From Saprospiraceae bacterium (lineage in GTDB: Bacteria; Bacteroidota; Bacteroidia; Chitinophagales; Saprospiraceae), in NCBI GenBank assembly GCA_020629255.1, contig JAHDDR010000002.1:1-64000 (forward strand): a stretch of 64,000 nt of DNA, written 5' to 3'. Below the pieces are notes generated by a model, which saw only the letters and a list, made by a program, of their open reading frames with translations, was not told where the DNA came from and made no database searches. The position numbers and the translations under genes were made by a program. Positions 17,459 through 26,806 of the stretch are shown here, piece after piece. Numbering within the stretch: position 1 is the stretch's first letter; each line of letters starts with the position of its first letter.

Positions 17459-17604
17459 TTCGTTAAAGGGTAAGATTCATGACAAAATTATTAGCATAAA
17501 AATTCATGTCACATTACGGATTTACTATATTTACATGGTTTTCCAAACATAGACACAACATGATTCAGTCTAATATTAAGCAATTCATATCGTTTTCATA
17601 TCAG

Positions 17605-20600
17605 ATGAAGCTACTAAAAATTCTATTGGTTTTTATTGCAGTATTCCTTTTTTCTATGAATGCTGATGCTCAAAAAAGACTTCGCTTAATCATCACGCAA
17701 GTTTGTGTGGATGGTGATAACGATTGTGATGGAGGGCTATTTTCATCAGATAATGACCATTATTGGTCATGGGAGGGTGGTTCAGTAAGTAATGAGTGTG
17801 TAGGATATGACAATACGGCACCGGATTATTGTAGGGCACCCAATAGAACCATTTATGATGAAGAATTTAATTGCCCTTCAGATTGGCCAACGGGTAATTT
17901 GGGTTTCACTTGGTATGTTTCTGAATGTGACGCATGCGGATGTTTGGCAGGTACACTAACGGGCTCAGATGCTAGCATGGGAATTTCTTTCCCTTATCCA
18001 GCTAGTAATGTAGGGGGAGGAAGCACGAATAATACGACGTATACCATTTTTAATGCTCCAGGTTGTTTTGATAATCCAGGTAATTACACCTTTACCATGG
18101 AGTGGGTGGTTTCTGGTTCATATCCGGGAACGGGCAATGATATGTGTGTAGATGCTATAAACTTAGGAACACTGGGTTCTGGAGCAACAATAGGAAATGC
18201 AGGTTTGAGCAATTACAATAATTTTTGTGCCACATCTACTGGAGATCCAGGAGCCTCTTGGTCTAATGAACAAGGGGTCTGGTTTACCTTTACTACATCG
18301 GCTACACCCGGTTCCATCATTACCATAGATGGTTATAATGACCCCCAAAGTTTGGGAGATCAAATAGACATGCAATTGGCTTTATTCGAATCATCTGGTG
18401 GATGTGCCGGGCCTTTTACTCTAATAGAATCCGATTTCGATCCTCTGTTTTATAGTGAGACAATGGAAGTTAATTGCCTTAAGCCCAATACGACTTATTA
18501 TATCTTAGTAGATGGTGATAGTAACCTTGCTAATGCTTTTAATGGTCAAGAAGGTTACTTTGGCATGACTGTGGCAGACAATGGAATTCCTGCTGCTACC
18601 AACGACTTGGTTTGTGATGCTATAGACATGGGAATCCTTCCATTCGGAGGTACTTTAGGTAATTCATCAGTAAGTTCTTACAATAATATCTGCGGTTCCA
18701 ATACGTCAGATCCGAATCCAGCCAATTGGGACAACGAACAAGGCGTATGGTTTTCGTTCACCACTGGAGCACAAGTTGGAACAACAGCAGAAATAGTAGG
18801 AGAAAATGACCCTTCCGGATTAGGTGACAACATGTCGATAGAATTCTCTTTATATGCATCAAGTAATGGTACATGCAGTGGTACATTGACCGAAATTTCA
18901 GATGCGGTAGATATCATCGATTTAGGCTTTGGCGAAAGCATGACAGTTGAATGTCTAGAACCCAACACCACCTATTATTTATTGGTAGATGGTTTCGACG
19001 ATCCCTTTACCGACTTTTTGATAGAAGGGTATTTCGGTTTGAGTATTGAGGACGATGGTACCGTACAAGCAGCAGATTATATTTGCGATGCAGAAGATCT
19101 TGGAGCCGTACCTGATGGAGGTTCAGTGACAACCAATTTCCCAAATCAGTCTAATATTTGTGCTACACCTGCTATAGACGGTATGGGAGGTTTGGATCCC
19201 GTTCCTGGGCAATGGCAATTGGATGACCCCACAGACCAACAAGGGGTTTGGTTTGAATTCACAGCACCTCCAAGTGGTTCTGCCGGAATTTTTATCAATT
19301 CGACTGCGGATTTAAATTTCTTAGACTTAAATGAGAGTATAGATATATATGTGGCTTTGTATCAAACAAATGATAATACCTGTTCAGGTACACTAGATTT
19401 GGTAGAAGAACAACATTCATCTACTTCTCCCTGTGGTTTGGATTTTTCTCCTTCCGATTTATTTGATGAGCAGTTGGATGCCTATTGTCTTAATCCGGGA
19501 CAAAATTACTGGGTCATGGTACAAGGGGATCCCAATTTGCTTTTAACAGATATTGATGGAAGTGTAGATGGAACACAAGGGTATTTTACCATAGATGTAA
19601 CCGATTTAGGCTTCCCTTCCACCCACTATTCTTTAGGAGGTAATGATGATGTTTGCTTTGCAACACCATTAGGTGCTCCAACCGTAGGGGGTGGCCCCAT
19701 TACCTTGACCGACCAAAGCAATCATTGTGCATCAGCAGAGGTTGAACCCAATAACTTTGGTTTTACCAATGAAAGCGGAGTTTGGTATTCTTTTATCGCT
19801 CCTACGTCTGGTATTGTTCAGATTTGGGCATTGAACCAAGAACCATTGGATGGAGTGACTTTATGCCCTCCTCCTGTTCCCTTATATCAAGATGCCATAC
19901 AAATTGAATTAGCTGTTTTTGAAGCGGTAAATGGTATAACTTGTGGAGGTAGCCCTACACAAAACCAAAATGATATCAATTTGGGTAATCCGATTGCTTG
20001 GGATAGCGAAGTCGATCTATTGGATTTCTTGATTTCCAATGATGTTTTAGATGGAGGGATTTCAATAAACGATGCGGCTAATGATGAGTACATGGTTGCA
20101 GAATGTTTGACCCCCGGCCAAACGTACTATATCATGGTGGATGGTAATCCGAATGTATCAAGTGTCCTTCAAAACCAAGATTTGATTGAAGGTATATTTA
20201 CGATTACAATCGAGGCGATAGACCAACCACCACCAACAGGCAATGACCTACCTTGTGATGCCATTGCCTTAGGGCAACCACCCGCCGGAATTGGAGGAAG
20301 CATCGGTGGCACAACCGTTTATAATAACTATTGTGCCACACCGGATAATGAACCTCCTGTTGATGCGTTTGATCCGGATTCTACCGTATGGTTTACATTC
20401 GAAGCTCCGGCAACAGGAAGTGTTATGATAGAAGCCGTTTCTCAAGGTGGTCTATTGGATGATGAAAGTATCAATCTCCAAATGGCCGTTTTCCAATCGG
20501 ATTATGACCCAGCGACCCAACAACCCTGCGAAGGCTCATTTTATGAATTAGTAGGGCAGGATGATAACCTTTCCTTAGATGTGGATATAGAAGAAATTCA

Positions 20601-23600
20601 TTGCTTGGAAGAAGGTGAAACCTATTTCATCTTAATTGATGGTGAACCGGATGGAGTGAACATCACGACTCAAGAAATTGGTGAATTTACCATTGAAATT
20701 ACAACCATCGCTCCCATTCCCACTCAGTCCAACGACTTGATATGTAATGCGGTGGATATGATGACATATGGCGATCCATTTGCTGGAGGTTCTTCATTAC
20801 CCACACAAGAACATAATATCTGTGCGAATGACATAAATGACCCGGGCACTTGCTTCAATACAGACTATACTGTTTGGTATACTTTTGAAACGCCGGCTGC
20901 AGTACCCCCTGGTATGGCATATGCCGTAGACATTACTGTGACCAGTGATTATTTCGATCTCTTTGGGCCTTATGACATGATCATTCCCCAAGTCGCTGTT
21001 TTTGAATCGGATAACAATACTTGTACAGGAGGTTTAACCGAAATGGCCTGCTCAGGTGGAGATATCATTCCAGATGATATTGGAATATTCCCTCCTACTT
21101 TTACATATATCACAGAGTTAGAAGTTCAATGTCTTTTACCCAATCAGACTTATTATGTTATGATAGATGGTCTAACCACCTTCGCGGGTGATATTGGTTT
21201 TGGACAAGGGTATTTTGATTTGGATATCGTTCAAACGGCAGCGAATCCAGCTGCTCAGAACGATGAAATTTGTGACTTCATAGATTTGGGTACAGTTCCT
21301 GTTGGTGGTACGATACCTGCTGGAACCGATTATTATAATTTCTGTGCAGAAACCTCTCCTGGAGAACCTGATCCAGATGCGTTTGGTATCGACCAAACCG
21401 TTTGGTTTACCTTTACAGCTCCGAATACACCCGGACCCAATGCTTCTTCTAGCATTACCATTAATTTAACCAGTGATCCAAATAGTATAGGCGATGAAAC
21501 AGACCTGCAAGTTGCCGTATATGAATCTTCTGATGGTACTTGTAATGGTTCCCTTACAGAAATAGATAGTGAATATGAAGGTCTTGGACTCGTTTACGAT
21601 GAAACAATGTCGTTAACTTGCTTGAATCCGGGACAAACCTATTACATGCAAATCGATGGTGCGGATAATCTCATAGGAGGAATCGAAGGATACTTCCATA
21701 TAGAAATTGTTGATGATGGGGGAGGAGTATTCCCAATCAATGATGATATTTGTTCTCCCATTAGTTTAGGTACAGTACCAGAAACATCAGGAACCATTGG
21801 AGGAAATTATTCGAATCTTTGTGCCACGATTCAGGATGATGAACCCGATCCTGGATTTGGTTTGGGTCTAGATACCATTAATAATACTGTATGGTTTACC
21901 TTTACACCACCTACCTCAGGTAATGTATTTATTGATGCCAACAGCCTTGCGGATAATGTCGATTTACAATTGGCGGTTTATTACTCTGCGGATGGAACCT
22001 GCGATCCGAATCAAATGGTCCCCATCAATCATGAATGGGATGGACTCGGTACGGCTTGGGATGAAGATTTATATGTGACTTGTTTGGATCCGACCCAAAC
22101 CTATTATCTACAAGTCGATGGAGCTACGGGGGCATTGATACCAGAAGCTTTGGCAACGGGAGATTTCTCTTTAGCATTATCCGATGACGGAGGATCAACA
22201 ACTGTACCTCCTAACAACGATGTATGTGATGCCACCGTATTCACCAATTTTCCCACTACGGCATCAGAAACCTTGGCGAACCAAACCAATGAATGTGCCG
22301 ATGTAGAATTAGGGGAACCCGGAATTTTTGATTATGCCCAACATACCGTTTGGTATGAATTTGTAGCGCCACCTTCGGGACACATATCCATAGAAGTGGA
22401 TCCCTCCGGAATATTGGACATCTTACCTGAAATTTATCTGTTTGGTAATCCAAGTGGAACAGGTTGTACCTATTCGGATTTACAGTTAGTGGATTCAGAT
22501 GTGTTCCCGAATACTTCTTTGGACTTCGTATTGGAAACATCTTGTGTCGAACCGGGGCAAACATATTACATCCAAGTAGATGGCCAATTGATCAATCCGG
22601 TAGGAGAATTTGATATCATCCTTACTGATTTATACCCGAATTATGCTGCGACCATCGAGCCGCCGAACAATGATTGTATTGATGCTACTCCATTAACTGT
22701 ACAAAGTGAATCTTGTTTTGTCGGGGATGGAACTTGGTCGAATGAAAATTATGGCCATCCTACCATTTCATTGAATGATGGAATTGTTCAGGGCTGTAAT
22801 TCGAATGGTAATTGTGGTGATACATGGTATTGCTTTACGATGCCGCCGACAGGTGCCGCATTAATAGAAGGGAATGATGATAATGGTCTTTTTGGAGATA
22901 ATGATTTAACGATTATAGCTTACACTGGTGATTGTAATGGTCTCACTCCTGTAGAAACCATTTTGAATACGACTCCAGAAACTGCTTGTGAATTTGGACC
23001 CGAAATTGCTTTCGAAATTGGTCTCGATCCAGGTACGAAAGTATATCTACAAGTATTTGATGGAGCTGGAGATTTCCACGATAATCCATTCGATATTTGT
23101 GTGTCGGAGCAGTGTGGTGCTGATAATTGTTTGAATGCCATAGTCATGGAACCCAATGTGCCCTATTGTTGGAATACCGCTTCTGCAACAGGAGAAACTC
23201 TTGGGGTTAACCCCGGATATCCCGAATGTGGTACAGGTACAGCAGGTACAGACATCAATCCGGAACATTCATTGTATTTTACATTTACATCAGATTGTGC
23301 AGGAGGTACTATTGTCATTGATATTCTGAATGTACTGTATGATGAAAATGATCCGAATTATGCTCCTTGTGGTACTTTAGGAGCATCAACAGATGGGTTT
23401 GCCTTCTCTGTTTATGCTGATAACACAGATATTTGTGATGGTATCTATGATGATCAAGTGATATGTGATTACTACGGTGGTTGCCAAGAAGGAGGGGATC
23501 AGAGCTATCAATATACATTGAATGGTTTGAACCCGAATACCCAATATATCATCATGATAGATGGTGGGGCTTATTATCTCGGTGATGAAGTAGGAGGAAA

Positions 23601-24111
23601 TGTCCAAGGAGAAATCATGATTACGCAATTGTCCAGCCCGGATATAGATTCGATGGTCGTGGTTGATTCTATTGCTTGTTTCGGAGAGACTGGAACAGTA
23701 ACAGCCGAGGTGTCGGGTGGTGTACCTCCTTATTTATTCAATTGGGATGATGTGAGTTCTGATTCTATCTATACCAATGTTAGTCCGGGATGGCATTACC
23801 TAACAGTAACTTCTGGAGCGAATGGGTGTTTTGAAGTGGATTCAATCTTCTTACCAGAACCGCCAGAATTAACGGCTACTATGAATTTTGATCCGGATCA
23901 AATCTGTTATGGTCAGGATGTCGAAGCGGCACCGATTGTTGTGGGGGGAACCCCGGTTTATTCCTATGAATGGAGCAATGGGGAATTAGATTCCCTAGCA
24001 ACAATGCTCGGTGCCGGATTACATACAGTAACGGTTACCGATGATAATGGTTGTACCACAACCGTTGAAGTAGACGTACCCGCAGGGTTCCTTCAATTTA
24101 TCAGAAATTAG
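17605..24111 (+). CDS. Giant secreted multidomain protein with PPC-like repeats and SprB-like repeats
   Basis: From the ATG at 17605 this gives 2168 residues and starts with a clear signal peptide (MKLLKILLVFIAVFLFS...ADAQ). An upstream in-frame ATG at 17560 is possible but would add an odd leader. A unique cysteine-rich N-terminal domain (about 25-170) is followed by about eleven repeats of roughly 150-190 residues resembling bacterial pre-peptidase C-terminal (PPC) beta-sandwiches. They are followed by two SprB-like repeats (about 2015-2160) with PPYLFNW and HTVTVTDDNGC. The protein ends shortly afterwards (AGFLQFIRN) with no recognisable type IX secretion sorting domain, although a strong terminator follows, so the gene end is genuine. 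It is probably a surface or extracellular adhesion or matrix protein, exported by Sec and perhaps retained at the surface. It carries no catalytic motif that I can see. Confidence 0.78.
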   Translation: MKLLKILLVFIAVFLFSMNADAQKRLRLIITQVCVDGDNDCDGGLFSSDNDHYWSWEGGSVSNECVGYDNTAPDYCRAPNRTIYDEEFNCPSDWPTGNLGFTWYVSECDACGCLAGTLTGSDASMGISFPYPASNVGGGSTNNTTYTIFNAPGCFDNPGNYTFTMEWVVSGSYPGTGNDMCVDAINLGTLGSGATIGNAGLSNYNNFCATSTGDPGASWSNEQGVWFTFTTSATPGSIITIDGYNDPQSLGDQIDMQLALFESSGGCAGPFTLIESDFDPLFYSETMEVNCLKPNTTYYILVDGDSNLANAFNGQEGYFGMTVADNGIPAATNDLVCDAIDMGILPFGGTLGNSSVSSYNNICGSNTSDPNPANWDNEQGVWFSFTTGAQVGTTAEIVGENDPSGLGDNMSIEFSLYASSNGTCSGTLTEISDAVDIIDLGFGESMTVECLEPNTTYYLLVDGFDDPFTDFLIEGYFGLSIEDDGTVQAADYICDAEDLGAVPDGGSVTTNFPNQSNICATPAIDGMGGLDPVPGQWQLDDPTDQQGVWFEFTAPPSGSAGIFINSTADLNFLDLNESIDIYVALYQTNDNTCSGTLDLVEEQHSSTSPCGLDFSPSDLFDEQLDAYCLNPGQNYWVMVQGDPNLLLTDIDGSVDGTQGYFTIDVTDLGFPSTHYSLGGNDDVCFATPLGAPTVGGGPITLTDQSNHCASAEVEPNNFGFTNESGVWYSFIAPTSGIVQIWALNQEPLDGVTLCPPPVPLYQDAIQIELAVFEAVNGITCGGSPTQNQNDINLGNPIAWDSEVDLLDFLISNDVLDGGISINDAANDEYMVAECLTPGQTYYIMVDGNPNVSSVLQNQDLIEGIFTITIEAIDQPPPTGNDLPCDAIALGQPPAGIGGSIGGTTVYNNYCATPDNEPPVDAFDPDSTVWFTFEAPATGSVMIEAVSQGGLLDDESINLQMAVFQSDYDPATQQPCEGSFYELVGQDDNLSLDVDIEEIHCLEEGETYFILIDGEPDGVNITTQEIGEFTIEITTIAPIPTQSNDLICNAVDMMTYGDPFAGGSSLPTQEHNICANDINDPGTCFNTDYTVWYTFETPAAVPPGMAYAVDITVTSDYFDLFGPYDMIIPQVAVFESDNNTCTGGLTEMACSGGDIIPDDIGIFPPTFTYITELEVQCLLPNQTYYVMIDGLTTFAGDIGFGQGYFDLDIVQTAANPAAQNDEICDFIDLGTVPVGGTIPAGTDYYNFCAETSPGEPDPDAFGIDQTVWFTFTAPNTPGPNASSSITINLTSDPNSIGDETDLQVAVYESSDGTCNGSLTEIDSEYEGLGLVYDETMSLTCLNPGQTYYMQIDGADNLIGGIEGYFHIEIVDDGGGVFPINDDICSPISLGTVPETSGTIGGNYSNLCATIQDDEPDPGFGLGLDTINNTVWFTFTPPTSGNVFIDANSLADNVDLQLAVYYSADGTCDPNQMVPINHEWDGLGTAWDEDLYVTCLDPTQTYYLQVDGATGALIPEALATGDFSLALSDDGGSTTVPPNNDVCDATVFTNFPTTASETLANQTNECADVELGEPGIFDYAQHTVWYEFVAPPSGHISIEVDPSGILDILPEIYLFGNPSGTGCTYSDLQLVDSDVFPNTSLDFVLETSCVEPGQTYYIQVDGQLINPVGEFDIILTDLYPNYAATIEPPNNDCIDATPLTVQSESCFVGDGTWSNENYGHPTISLNDGIVQGCNSNGNCGDTWYCFTMPPTGAALIEGNDDNGLFGDNDLTIIAYTGDCNGLTPVETILNTTPETACEFGPEIAFEIGLDPGTKVYLQVFDGAGDFHDNPFDICVSEQCGADNCLNAIVMEPNVPYCWNTASATGETLGVNPGYPECGTGTAGTDINPEHSLYFTFTSDCAGGTIVIDILNVLYDENDPNYAPCGTLGASTDGFAFSVYADNTDICDGIYDDQVICDYYGGCQEGGDQSYQYTLNGLNPNTQYIIMIDGGAYYLGDEVGGNVQGEIMITQLSSPDIDSMVVVDSIACFGETGTVTAEVSGGVPPYLFNWDDVSSDSIYTNVSPGWHYLTVTSGANGCFEVDSIFLPEPPELTATMNFDPDQICYGQDVEAAPIVVGGTPVYSYEWSNGELDSLATMLGAGLHTVTVTDDNGCTTTVEVDVPAGFLQFIRN
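18124..23630 (+). repeat. About eleven in-gene PPC-like repeats
   Basis: Inside the giant gene, units begin with a pattern like ND..CDA..LG, continue with N.CA, then VWFTFTAP..G, D..LAVY....GTC.G, and end with CL.PGQTYYIMVDG and a G.F.I.I strand. Unit starts can be seen near 18130, 18600, 19070, 19640, 20235, 20730, 21255, 21735, 22205, 22660 and 23110. The units have diverged at both protein and DNA level, so this is an old expansion and not a recent tandem duplication. The last two units are the most divergent. Confidence 0.75.
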
Positions 24112-24136
24112 TCTAATATTTAAATCTGATTTTTTA

Positions 24137-24168
24137 GAAGGGGTTGAGCCATTTGGCTCAACCCCTTC
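24137..24168 (+). terminator. Rho-independent terminator after the giant repeat gene
   Basis: A 14-bp perfect stem (GAAGGGGTTGAGCC and its complement) with a 4-nt loop lies 26 nt after the stop at 24111 and is followed by a T-rich stretch. It separates the repeat gene from the rpsA promoter. Confidence 0.85.
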
Positions 24169-24195
24169 TCTTTATATTCATCAAAATCAACAATG

Positions 24196-24227
24196 TTTGG
24201 CATAAACCAATAAAAACCGTATCTTTG
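24196..24227 (+). promoter_or_regulatory. Bacteroidota-type promoter for rpsA
   Basis: TTTG at 24196-24199 and TATCTTTG at 24220-24227 are separated by 20 nt, an exact match to the -33 TTTG / -7 TAnnTTTG consensus of primary sigma factors in this phylum. Transcription should start near 24232. That leaves an 80-nt leader containing a GC-richer stretch (24241-24275) that could hold a control element for S1 autoregulation; the latter is only a suggestion. Confidence 0.8.
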
Positions 24228-24313: not shown

Positions 24314-26746
24314 ATGATGTTAGATGACGAAAAAAATGTTAACGAAGAAGTTAACGAAACTCCTCAAAATGAAGAGGTGAAAGAAACAGGTGCTAAGGAC
24401 GATTATTTAGAAATTAGTGCTTACCAAGGACACGATCGTGTCGAATCAGATCCGGATTTCTGTGCTTTTGAAGTGGATGGCGATTTTTATTTCGCTATGT
24501 TGGATGCCAATGGCAACGTATTGCTACGTTCCGAAGGTTATTCTTCTGCCAAATCAAGAGATAACGGAATCAAATCCGTAACGAAGAATCGTGAAGTAGA
24601 AAAACGTTATTCTATTTTAAATGAGAATGATCAATACTTTGTTATTCTTAAAGCGGGGAATCACCAAGAAATTGGTAGAAGTGGAGCTTATGCTAAACTA
24701 GAAGATGCTACGGCTAGCCAAAATGCCTGGAAAAAAGAGGAAACTCCTGTAGTAGAGGCAAAAAAAGAAGCTGCTCCGGCAGAAGAAGTAGTAGAAGCTG
24801 AAATCGAAGAAAAAGAAGGTATTGTTCTAATGCAAACCGACGAACCTGAAGAGGAAGTGGTGGAAGAAGTGGTGGAAGAAGATACACCCGATGAAATCGA
24901 GGAAGAAACTCAGATTGTAGTAGATAGAGGGCCTCATGACGACTTTGATTGGTCTTTAGGCAAAAGGAATACAATCACGTATAATGACAGTGATAAAGAA
25001 TCCCTTTTAAAAGATTATAGTGCTTCCTTGAATTCTGTAATAGAGAATGAGGTGGTGAAAGGTCGTGTAAGCGATATTACTAGTGGTGATGTTGTTTTGG
25101 ACATCAATGCTAAATCTGATGGCCTTGTTTCCTTGTCCGAATTCAGGGATATGCCTGATTTGAAAGTAGGAGATATGGTCGACGTATACGTCGAACAACA
25201 AGAAGATGCGAAGGGTCAATTGATTCTTTCTCGAAGAAAAGCCAAATTACTAACGGCTTGGGAAAGTTTAGTAGAATCTTACAACGAAGGTACGATTATT
25301 CAAGGTCTTGTGGTTTCCAAAACAAAAGGTGGTCTTATTGTAGATTGCAATGGTTTGGAAACATTCTTACCCGGTTCTCAAATCGATATCAAACCTATTA
25401 TTGATTATGATTCCTATGTAGGAAAAACAATGGACTTCAAGGTTGTGAAAATCAACGAAGCTATCAAGAATGCTGTTGTTTCTCATAAAGCTCTTATCGA
25501 AAGTGATTTGGCCGACCAAAGAGAACAAATCATCAGTGGCTTGGAGAAAGGTCAGGTACTTGAAGGTTTGGTGAAAAACATTACAGACTTCGGTGCATTC
25601 TTAGATTTAGGAGGTGTAGACGGTCTATTGTATATCACAGATATTTCTTGGGGTCGTATTTCACATCCAAGAGAAGTATTGGAACTGAACCAGAAAATCA
25701 ACGTAGTTGTATTGGATTTTGATGAAAACAAAAAACGTATTTCATTGGGTCTGAAACAACTTCAACCACACCCTTGGGAAGTCTTGGGCGAAGATGTGAA
25801 AGAAGGTTCTGTTGTGAAAGGTAAGATCGTAAATATCGAAGATTATGGTGCATTCCTTGAAATCACTCCAGGTGTAGAAGGTTTGATTCACGTATCTGAG
25901 GTAACTTGGAGCAACCAACCGGTTAATGCAAGGGATTACTTCAAGGTAGGACAAGAATACGATGCGAAAATTGTTACCATTGATAGAGAAGATCGCAAGA
26001 TGTCTCTTTCATTGAAACAAATGAGCAAAGATCCTTGGAGCGATATCGCTGAAAGATACCCGAACGAGAGCCGTCATTCTGGTGAAGTGAAAAACTTGAC
26101 TCCTTATGGTGTATTCGTTGAGTTGGAAGAGGGAATAGGAGGTATGATTCATATTTCTGATTTGTCTTGGACTAAGCGTTATGCCCACCCATCCGAATTT
26201 ACAAAAGTGGGAGACACCATTGAAATTATGGTATTGGATGTTAATCCGGATACTCGTAAAATGTCTCTAGGACACAAGCAATTGGAAGAAAATCCATGGG
26301 ATACATTCGAAACGGTATTCCCTGTAGGTTCTTTCCATGAAGCAACGATTGTAAGAAGAGATGATAAAGGAGCCATCGTATTATTGCCTTATGGTTTGGA
26401 AGCATATGCACCATTGCGTCATGTGAAAAAAGAAGATGGTAATTATGCAAATCCGGATGAGATTTTAATGTTCAAAGTTTTGGAATTCAATAGGGATGAC
26501 AAGCGTATTTTGGTTTCCCATTCACGTTATACTGAGCAAATCCAAAGAGATGCGGATGATGAAGTGAAGAAGGAGCGCCAAAAAGAACAGAAGAAAGTTC
26601 GTAATGTTATCAAGAAAACACAAAAGAACATCGAACTTACTACATTAGGTGATTTGGATGTCTTCTCTGACTTGAAATCTCAATTACAGGATTCTGACAA
26701 AAAAGAGGATGACAAAAAAGAAGATGATAAGAAAGATGATAAATAA
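24314..26746 (+). CDS. rpsA: 30S ribosomal protein S1 with N-terminal tandem DUF1508 (YegP-like) module
   Basis: Ribosomal protein S1 binds mRNA on the 30S subunit during initiation. From the ATG at 24314 the protein has 810 residues, well above the usual 550-650. Six S1 RNA-binding domains span about 245-765, with typical signatures such as ITDFGAFLDLGG, VEGLIHVSEVTW and GGMIHISDLSW. The N-terminal residues 30-139 are a separate tandem module with FYFAMLDANGNVLLRSEGY and YFVILKAGNHQEIGRSGAY, matching the DUF1508/YegP style. An acidic linker (about 145-215, many Glu) joins the parts, and the tail is a Lys-Asp repeat (KKEDDKKEDDKK). The gene has its own promoter and terminator. A TTG start three codons upstream is less likely. 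S1 identity is certain and the fusion is visible directly. Confidence 0.95.
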   Translation: MMLDDEKNVNEEVNETPQNEEVKETGAKDDYLEISAYQGHDRVESDPDFCAFEVDGDFYFAMLDANGNVLLRSEGYSSAKSRDNGIKSVTKNREVEKRYSILNENDQYFVILKAGNHQEIGRSGAYAKLEDATASQNAWKKEETPVVEAKKEAAPAEEVVEAEIEEKEGIVLMQTDEPEEEVVEEVVEEDTPDEIEEETQIVVDRGPHDDFDWSLGKRNTITYNDSDKESLLKDYSASLNSVIENEVVKGRVSDITSGDVVLDINAKSDGLVSLSEFRDMPDLKVGDMVDVYVEQQEDAKGQLILSRRKAKLLTAWESLVESYNEGTIIQGLVVSKTKGGLIVDCNGLETFLPGSQIDIKPIIDYDSYVGKTMDFKVVKINEAIKNAVVSHKALIESDLADQREQIISGLEKGQVLEGLVKNITDFGAFLDLGGVDGLLYITDISWGRISHPREVLELNQKINVVVLDFDENKKRISLGLKQLQPHPWEVLGEDVKEGSVVKGKIVNIEDYGAFLEITPGVEGLIHVSEVTWSNQPVNARDYFKVGQEYDAKIVTIDREDRKMSLSLKQMSKDPWSDIAERYPNESRHSGEVKNLTPYGVFVELEEGIGGMIHISDLSWTKRYAHPSEFTKVGDTIEIMVLDVNPDTRKMSLGHKQLEENPWDTFETVFPVGSFHEATIVRRDDKGAIVLLPYGLEAYAPLRHVKKEDGNYANPDEILMFKVLEFNRDDKRILVSHSRYTEQIQRDADDEVKKERQKEQKKVRNVIKKTQKNIELTTLGDLDVFSDLKSQLQDSDKKEDDKKEDDKKDDK

Positions 26747-26775: not shown

Positions 26776-26806
26776 AACGGCTGTTCCGAATTTCGGAGCA
26801 GCCGTT
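26776..26806. terminator. Terminator hairpin after rpsA
   Basis: The stem AACGGCTG.TCCGA pairs with TCGGA.CAGCCGTT, with one mismatch pair and a 3-nt loop, followed by TTGTTTTGG. It lies 30 nt after the rpsA stop and before the convergent oligopeptidase gene, so it may serve both strands. Confidence 0.75.

Follow-up and report, generated by a model that had tools for sequence, protein, structure and literature searches.

The 30S ribosomal protein S1 encoded in the stretch of DNA analysed here (positions 1 to 64,000 of contig JAHDDR010000002.1 from a Saprospiraceae bacterium; hereafter the window) carries a tandem DUF1508 (YegP-like) unit close to its N-terminus, and the relationships among the repeats suggest that membrane-anchored proteins with DUF1508 repeats were the source from which it was captured. 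The unit may serve as an adaptor hung from ribosome-bound S1 on a flexible acidic tether, a reading to which we give an even chance. DUF1508/YegP proteins are widespread and have no agreed function. With the domain now being found on the essential and well-studied S1, apparently more than once, as well as on anchored arrays, it becomes testable in these settings. An origin from envelope-anchored arrays and a repeated capture appear to us more interesting than the points raised in a preliminary description of this DNA.

Results

The S1 gene (810 aa; 24314..26746; all features given here lie on the forward strand) was delimited by its open reading frame and by Pfam and NCBIfam matches. That S1 is fused to a tandem DUF1508, as first described, is borne out by a Pfam match with E=1.6e-17, by an NCBIfam NF004953 (30S ribosomal protein S1) match of 792.8 bits over aa 207-770 (curated equivalog cut-off: 720 bits) and by a single stop-free frame running from the DUF1508 unit into S1. 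The S1 repeats at 25043..26623 are covered by five Pfam S1 stretches and by NF004953. At E<=1e-120 a single S1 match each was obtained in the window genome (G000, a draft of 271 contigs) and in the 100% complete genome G007 of the same genus. The fused protein is thus the only S1 found in either genome and represents the S1 of the cell rather than an extra paralogue.

The gene stands by itself, with a terminator-like hairpin on either side. The first one (24136..24169; stem of 15 pairs, 9 of them G-C, followed by a T-rich tail) belongs to the upstream gene and separates S1 from it, the second one (26776..26806; stem of 14 pairs) lies 3′ of S1. A promoter-like site, TTTG-N20-TATCTTTG, is located at 24196..24227, 86 nt 5′ of the ATG. 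It matches exactly the pattern TTTG-N20-TAnnTTTG, which we take to be the Bacteroidota-type consensus, yet 3.65 such sites are expected by chance in the window. Further upstream (17506-24111) a 2201-aa protein with many diverged repeats is encoded, which is probably a secreted surface protein.

In Saprospiraceae, S1 usually opens with the start peptide M[LS]D[DE]K[ND], after which come an acidic tail, which is variable, and an HDDFDW-like motif. In the window protein a start peptide of this kind precedes the DUF1508 unit, and the acidic tail comes after it. The first 29 residues (MMLDDEKNVNEE..., 24314..24400) resemble in alignment the start peptide of the tail in unfused Saprospiraceae S1s, one of which, from the same genus (L049), starts with MMLDDEKDPIEEVNENP. 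The HDDFDW motif itself, with which the S1 core begins in most S1s of the Saprospiraceae, is found at 24935..24952.

The unit comprises aa 30-141 (24401-24736) and matches Pfam PF07411 (DUF1508) with 63.5 bits, well above the gathering score of 22; the profile match on which the preliminary description depended does therefore exist. An N-terminal cap, DDYL..Y.GH (aa 30-46, 24401..24451), was defined by alignment and by the model helix 6-9, and in alignment it also recurs in the repeats of the OmpA-tailed arrays described below. Copy 1 (aa 47-93, 24452..24592) is supported by Pfam (aa 55-93) and by the strands and helix of the model, and is the only copy of the window protein which passes Pfam as a separate stretch. 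Copy 2 (aa 100-141, 24611..24736) is delimited by the phmmer span, by the repeated fold and by the same-genus orthologues in G001, G005 and G007, where both copies exceed the Pfam cut-off. Over both copies, phmmer aligned the unit with SO_3888 (2k49; E=1.4e-12) and with E. coli YegP (2k8e; E=2e-10). In the AlphaFold model of the unit (pLDDT 96.4) the order strand-strand-strand-helix occurs twice, and YegP (E=3.7e-7) and SO_3888 (E=2.3e-6) were its top Foldseek matches in the PDB (TM 0.67-0.72), so that the unit has the tandem YegP fold. The third Foldseek match was chain AD of 7b5h (E 7.8e-3, prob 1.00, TM 0.60), a baseplate protein of the thylakoid-anchored contractile injection system of Anabaena. 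A viral structure library gave no match at E<=0.001.

The acidic linker (aa 142-207, 66 residues; 24737..24934; low predicted confidence) joins the pair to S1. It sits 3′ of the pair and not between the copies, and thereby keeps unit and S1 core apart. In a predicted model built from a shallow alignment of five sequences, pLDDT is below 50 over aa 143-249 and secondary structure is absent before residue 228. As this five-sequence model scores the S1 part low too, flexibility of the linker is indicated but not established. A helix is predicted at aa 228-242 (24995..25039), at the position of the E. coli S1 N-terminal helix, which sits on uS2, and residue 21 of E. coli S1 aligns with aa ~245 of the window protein. 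Both observations place unit and linker outside the part of S1 that is shared with E. coli. Docking on the 30S platform, as envisaged in the preliminary description, is therefore not indicated for a unit held upstream of this part by an acidic tail of 66 residues that is predicted with low confidence. The unit could nevertheless bind the 30S platform or mRNA directly and alter initiation in these Shine-Dalgarno-poor bacteria, given that S1 has been proposed to replace Shine-Dalgarno pairing in Bacteroidetes (PMC6847099). Apart from the low-confidence tether and the position outside the E. coli-equivalent core, this idea is opposed by the nearest relatives of the unit, which are envelope-anchored and not ribosomal proteins, and by most Bacteroidota S1 working without any such unit. 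We consider direct docking very improbable.

Nine genomes of the window genus were available, in seven of which S1 could be read. The unit is present in five of the seven (G000, G001, G004, G005 and G007) and lacking in G006 and G008, which implies that it is dispensable over evolutionary time. Fused and unfused S1 inside one genus thus form a set of natural variants. Some 120 different S1 N-termini (107 recognised by their motif and roughly a dozen with variant motifs) were read from the named genome contigs and from further Saprospiraceae genomes, a sample that is biased to relatives of the window protein, and 12 of them contain the unit. Five of these belong to lineage A, the window genus, three to lineage B (L092, L099, L100) and four to lineage C (L081, L082, L143, L144), B and C being two other Saprospiraceae lineages. 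In a sample of 396 Bacteroidota genomes, only the window S1 aligned with the body of the unit among the best 150 S1 matches; all others aligned from query residue 91 or later, except for G305, whose alignment starts at residue 65 and runs through five stops. The fusion, for which the preliminary description had asked whether it was standard in the phylum, is consequently limited to a few lineages and non-standard, with no other carrier among the matches listed for the 396 genomes. Bacteroidota S1 reading frames of 863-899 aa with long N-terminal extensions were seen in G536, G575 and G599. All named carriers of the fusion are metagenome-assembled drafts. As the fusion recurs in independently assembled genomes, an assembly artefact or a wrong frame was ruled out. 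No paper on DUF1508 within S1 was found in the open-access literature.

The view that DUF1508 proteins are normally small and free-standing does not hold for the window genus, where the domain mainly occurs as repeats of a ~1000-aa, OmpA-tailed protein with a single transmembrane (TM) segment, and where the S1 unit nests among these repeats. In the window genome (contig C107, L038:2335-5307) such an array protein is 990 aa long and combines six DUF1508 pairs with one hydrophobic segment and an OmpA domain (Pfam E=1.9e-17); the S1 protein has no Pfam OmpA match. Arrays are present in G000, G001, G004 and G007, and also in G006, and proteins combining DUF1508 with OmpA are spread over at least three families of the order. 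The OmpA domain is periplasmic. With one hydrophobic segment and no signal peptide seen, the array repeats probably face the cytoplasm. Of 57 array units, 45 have both of two cysteines (DYLxC and RSC), 11 lack both and one has a single one; the S1 units of lineages A and B (S1_A, S1_B) have neither. The pair looks like a contacting one (disulfide, metal or redox). No shared gene neighbourhood was found across the array-bearing loci. A DEAD-box helicase gene adjoins the array on the same strand in G000 only and was dropped as a clue to the arrays, as it is not common to their loci.

In lineages B and C the unit is also found on helix-hairpin-helix proteins, on a protein with a histone-H1-like tail and on TM-OmpA proteins. 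In L305:3062-3721 and L307:2038-2682 a YegP pair is fused to a long (AVAKK)n tail, which in L305 has a Pfam match to the histone H1-like HC2. In L293, L294, L298 and L299, proteins with DUF1508 units also have a hydrophobic segment at the N-terminus and helix-hairpin-helix-like domains (EGIGPKI motif). In the proteins of L291, L297 and L304 (~1000-1200 aa) the DUF1508 pairs come after 'IKEVPVEVIKEVEV' repeats that extend over hundreds of residues.

A tree of 76 units was calculated from 112 columns, which limits the resolution of the capture history. In it, S1_A nests with array repeat 5 of the window genus (90/80), S1_B groups with another type of repeat (95/87, starred), and S1_C is placed elsewhere in the tree. 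A single clade of all S1 units was rejected by the AU test (p=0.0031), as were the pairs B+C (0.0135), A+C (0.033) and A+B (0.0185), which rules out a single ancestral capture. In the S1 tree, lineages B and C group together (98, starred). Taken together, the AU rejections and the S1 tree indicate at least two captures and probably a third one, or else a replacement within B+C.

The unit is under purifying selection, as judged from substitution patterns. For close pairs of lineages B and C (omitting the pair L081/L143), pairwise NG86 omega is lowest in the S1 core (0.01-0.05), intermediate in the unit (0.07-0.15) and highest in the linker (0.22-0.49). In lineage A, where dS is near saturation, only the order of the pN values is usable (unit 0.18-0.28, core 0.07-0.12). 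The weaker selection on the unit than on S1 would fit with the variable acidic S1 tail being a permissive site, at which a unit is tolerated and only its fold is selected. In unfused S1s this tail varies freely in length, the array repeats offer numerous donors, and just 12 of the ~120 N-termini contain the unit. On the other hand, the same domain family was captured two to three times at the same place, five species of the window genus have kept it despite their divergence, and it is clearly more constrained than the adjoining linker. A mere passenger therefore appears rather unlikely.

Discussion

The fusion to S1 suggests a role of the unit near the ribosome, and the repeated capture and the purifying selection strengthen this suggestion. 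The tethered adaptor is the simplest reading of the repeated capture, the constraint and the reuse of the unit on other proteins of lineages B and C, the latter being expected of an adaptor. The captured YegP-like pair would be a self-contained recognition domain, in which the tandem arrangement may replace the homodimer formed by single-copy members of the family. Displayed from ribosome-bound S1 via the flexible acidic tether, it could bring a putative DUF1508 ligand or partner to the S1-bearing 30S subunit and mRNA, or carry these to the ligand or partner, and it would not be an additional ribosome-docking or mRNA-binding domain.

As the array repeats are probably cytoplasmic, a coupling of ribosomes to the envelope can be envisaged, in which a common ligand of, or direct contact between, the units of S1 and those of the arrays would hold ribosomes or mRNAs at the membrane. 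S1 and the arrays carry the same unit, S1_A is nearest to the fifth array repeat, and arrays occur in four of the genomes with fused S1. Moreover, the unit is common to nucleic-acid-binding and TM-OmpA proteins in lineages B and C, and the order of TM segment and OmpA domain in the arrays would imply cytoplasmic repeats. Yet G005 has the S1 fusion and no other DUF1508 match (in an assembly that is 88% complete), G006 has arrays without the fusion, and a tandem pair, which is probably already a closed pseudo-dimer, would not be expected to pair with another module. We regard such a coupling as improbable. Even more doubtful appears a wider DUF1508 connection system of the Saprospiraceae, in which TM-OmpA arrays would share a ligand or contact with DUF1508-tagged nucleic-acid-binding proteins (S1, helix-hairpin-helix and H1-like proteins) and thereby position ribosomes, and perhaps DNA, at the envelope.

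The fused S1 can be compared with several known systems. The tandem DUF1508 fold of the S1 unit is that of the YegP/UPF0339/DUF1508 proteins (YegP, 2k8e; SO_3888, 2k49; HVO_2922). These are small stand-alone proteins, whereas the window unit is part of an 810-aa fusion with S1 and has the additional N-terminal DDYL..Y cap. Published links for YegP are few; its homologues were found after capK/capS in 57 cases (PMC13373217). The repeats of the multi-DUF1508 TM-OmpA array (L038:2335-5307) are 50-62% identical to the S1 unit, but S1 contains a single unit and neither a TM segment nor an OmpA domain. With ordinary Saprospiraceae bS1 the window protein has the core, the HDDFDW motif, the acidic tail and the start peptide in common, the difference being the DUF1508 unit. 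An unrelated domain also precedes S1 in the bifunctional IspH-S1 protein (NCBIfam NF000907), a precedent that belongs to another phylum and in which the extra domain is an enzyme instead of a DUF1508 pair.
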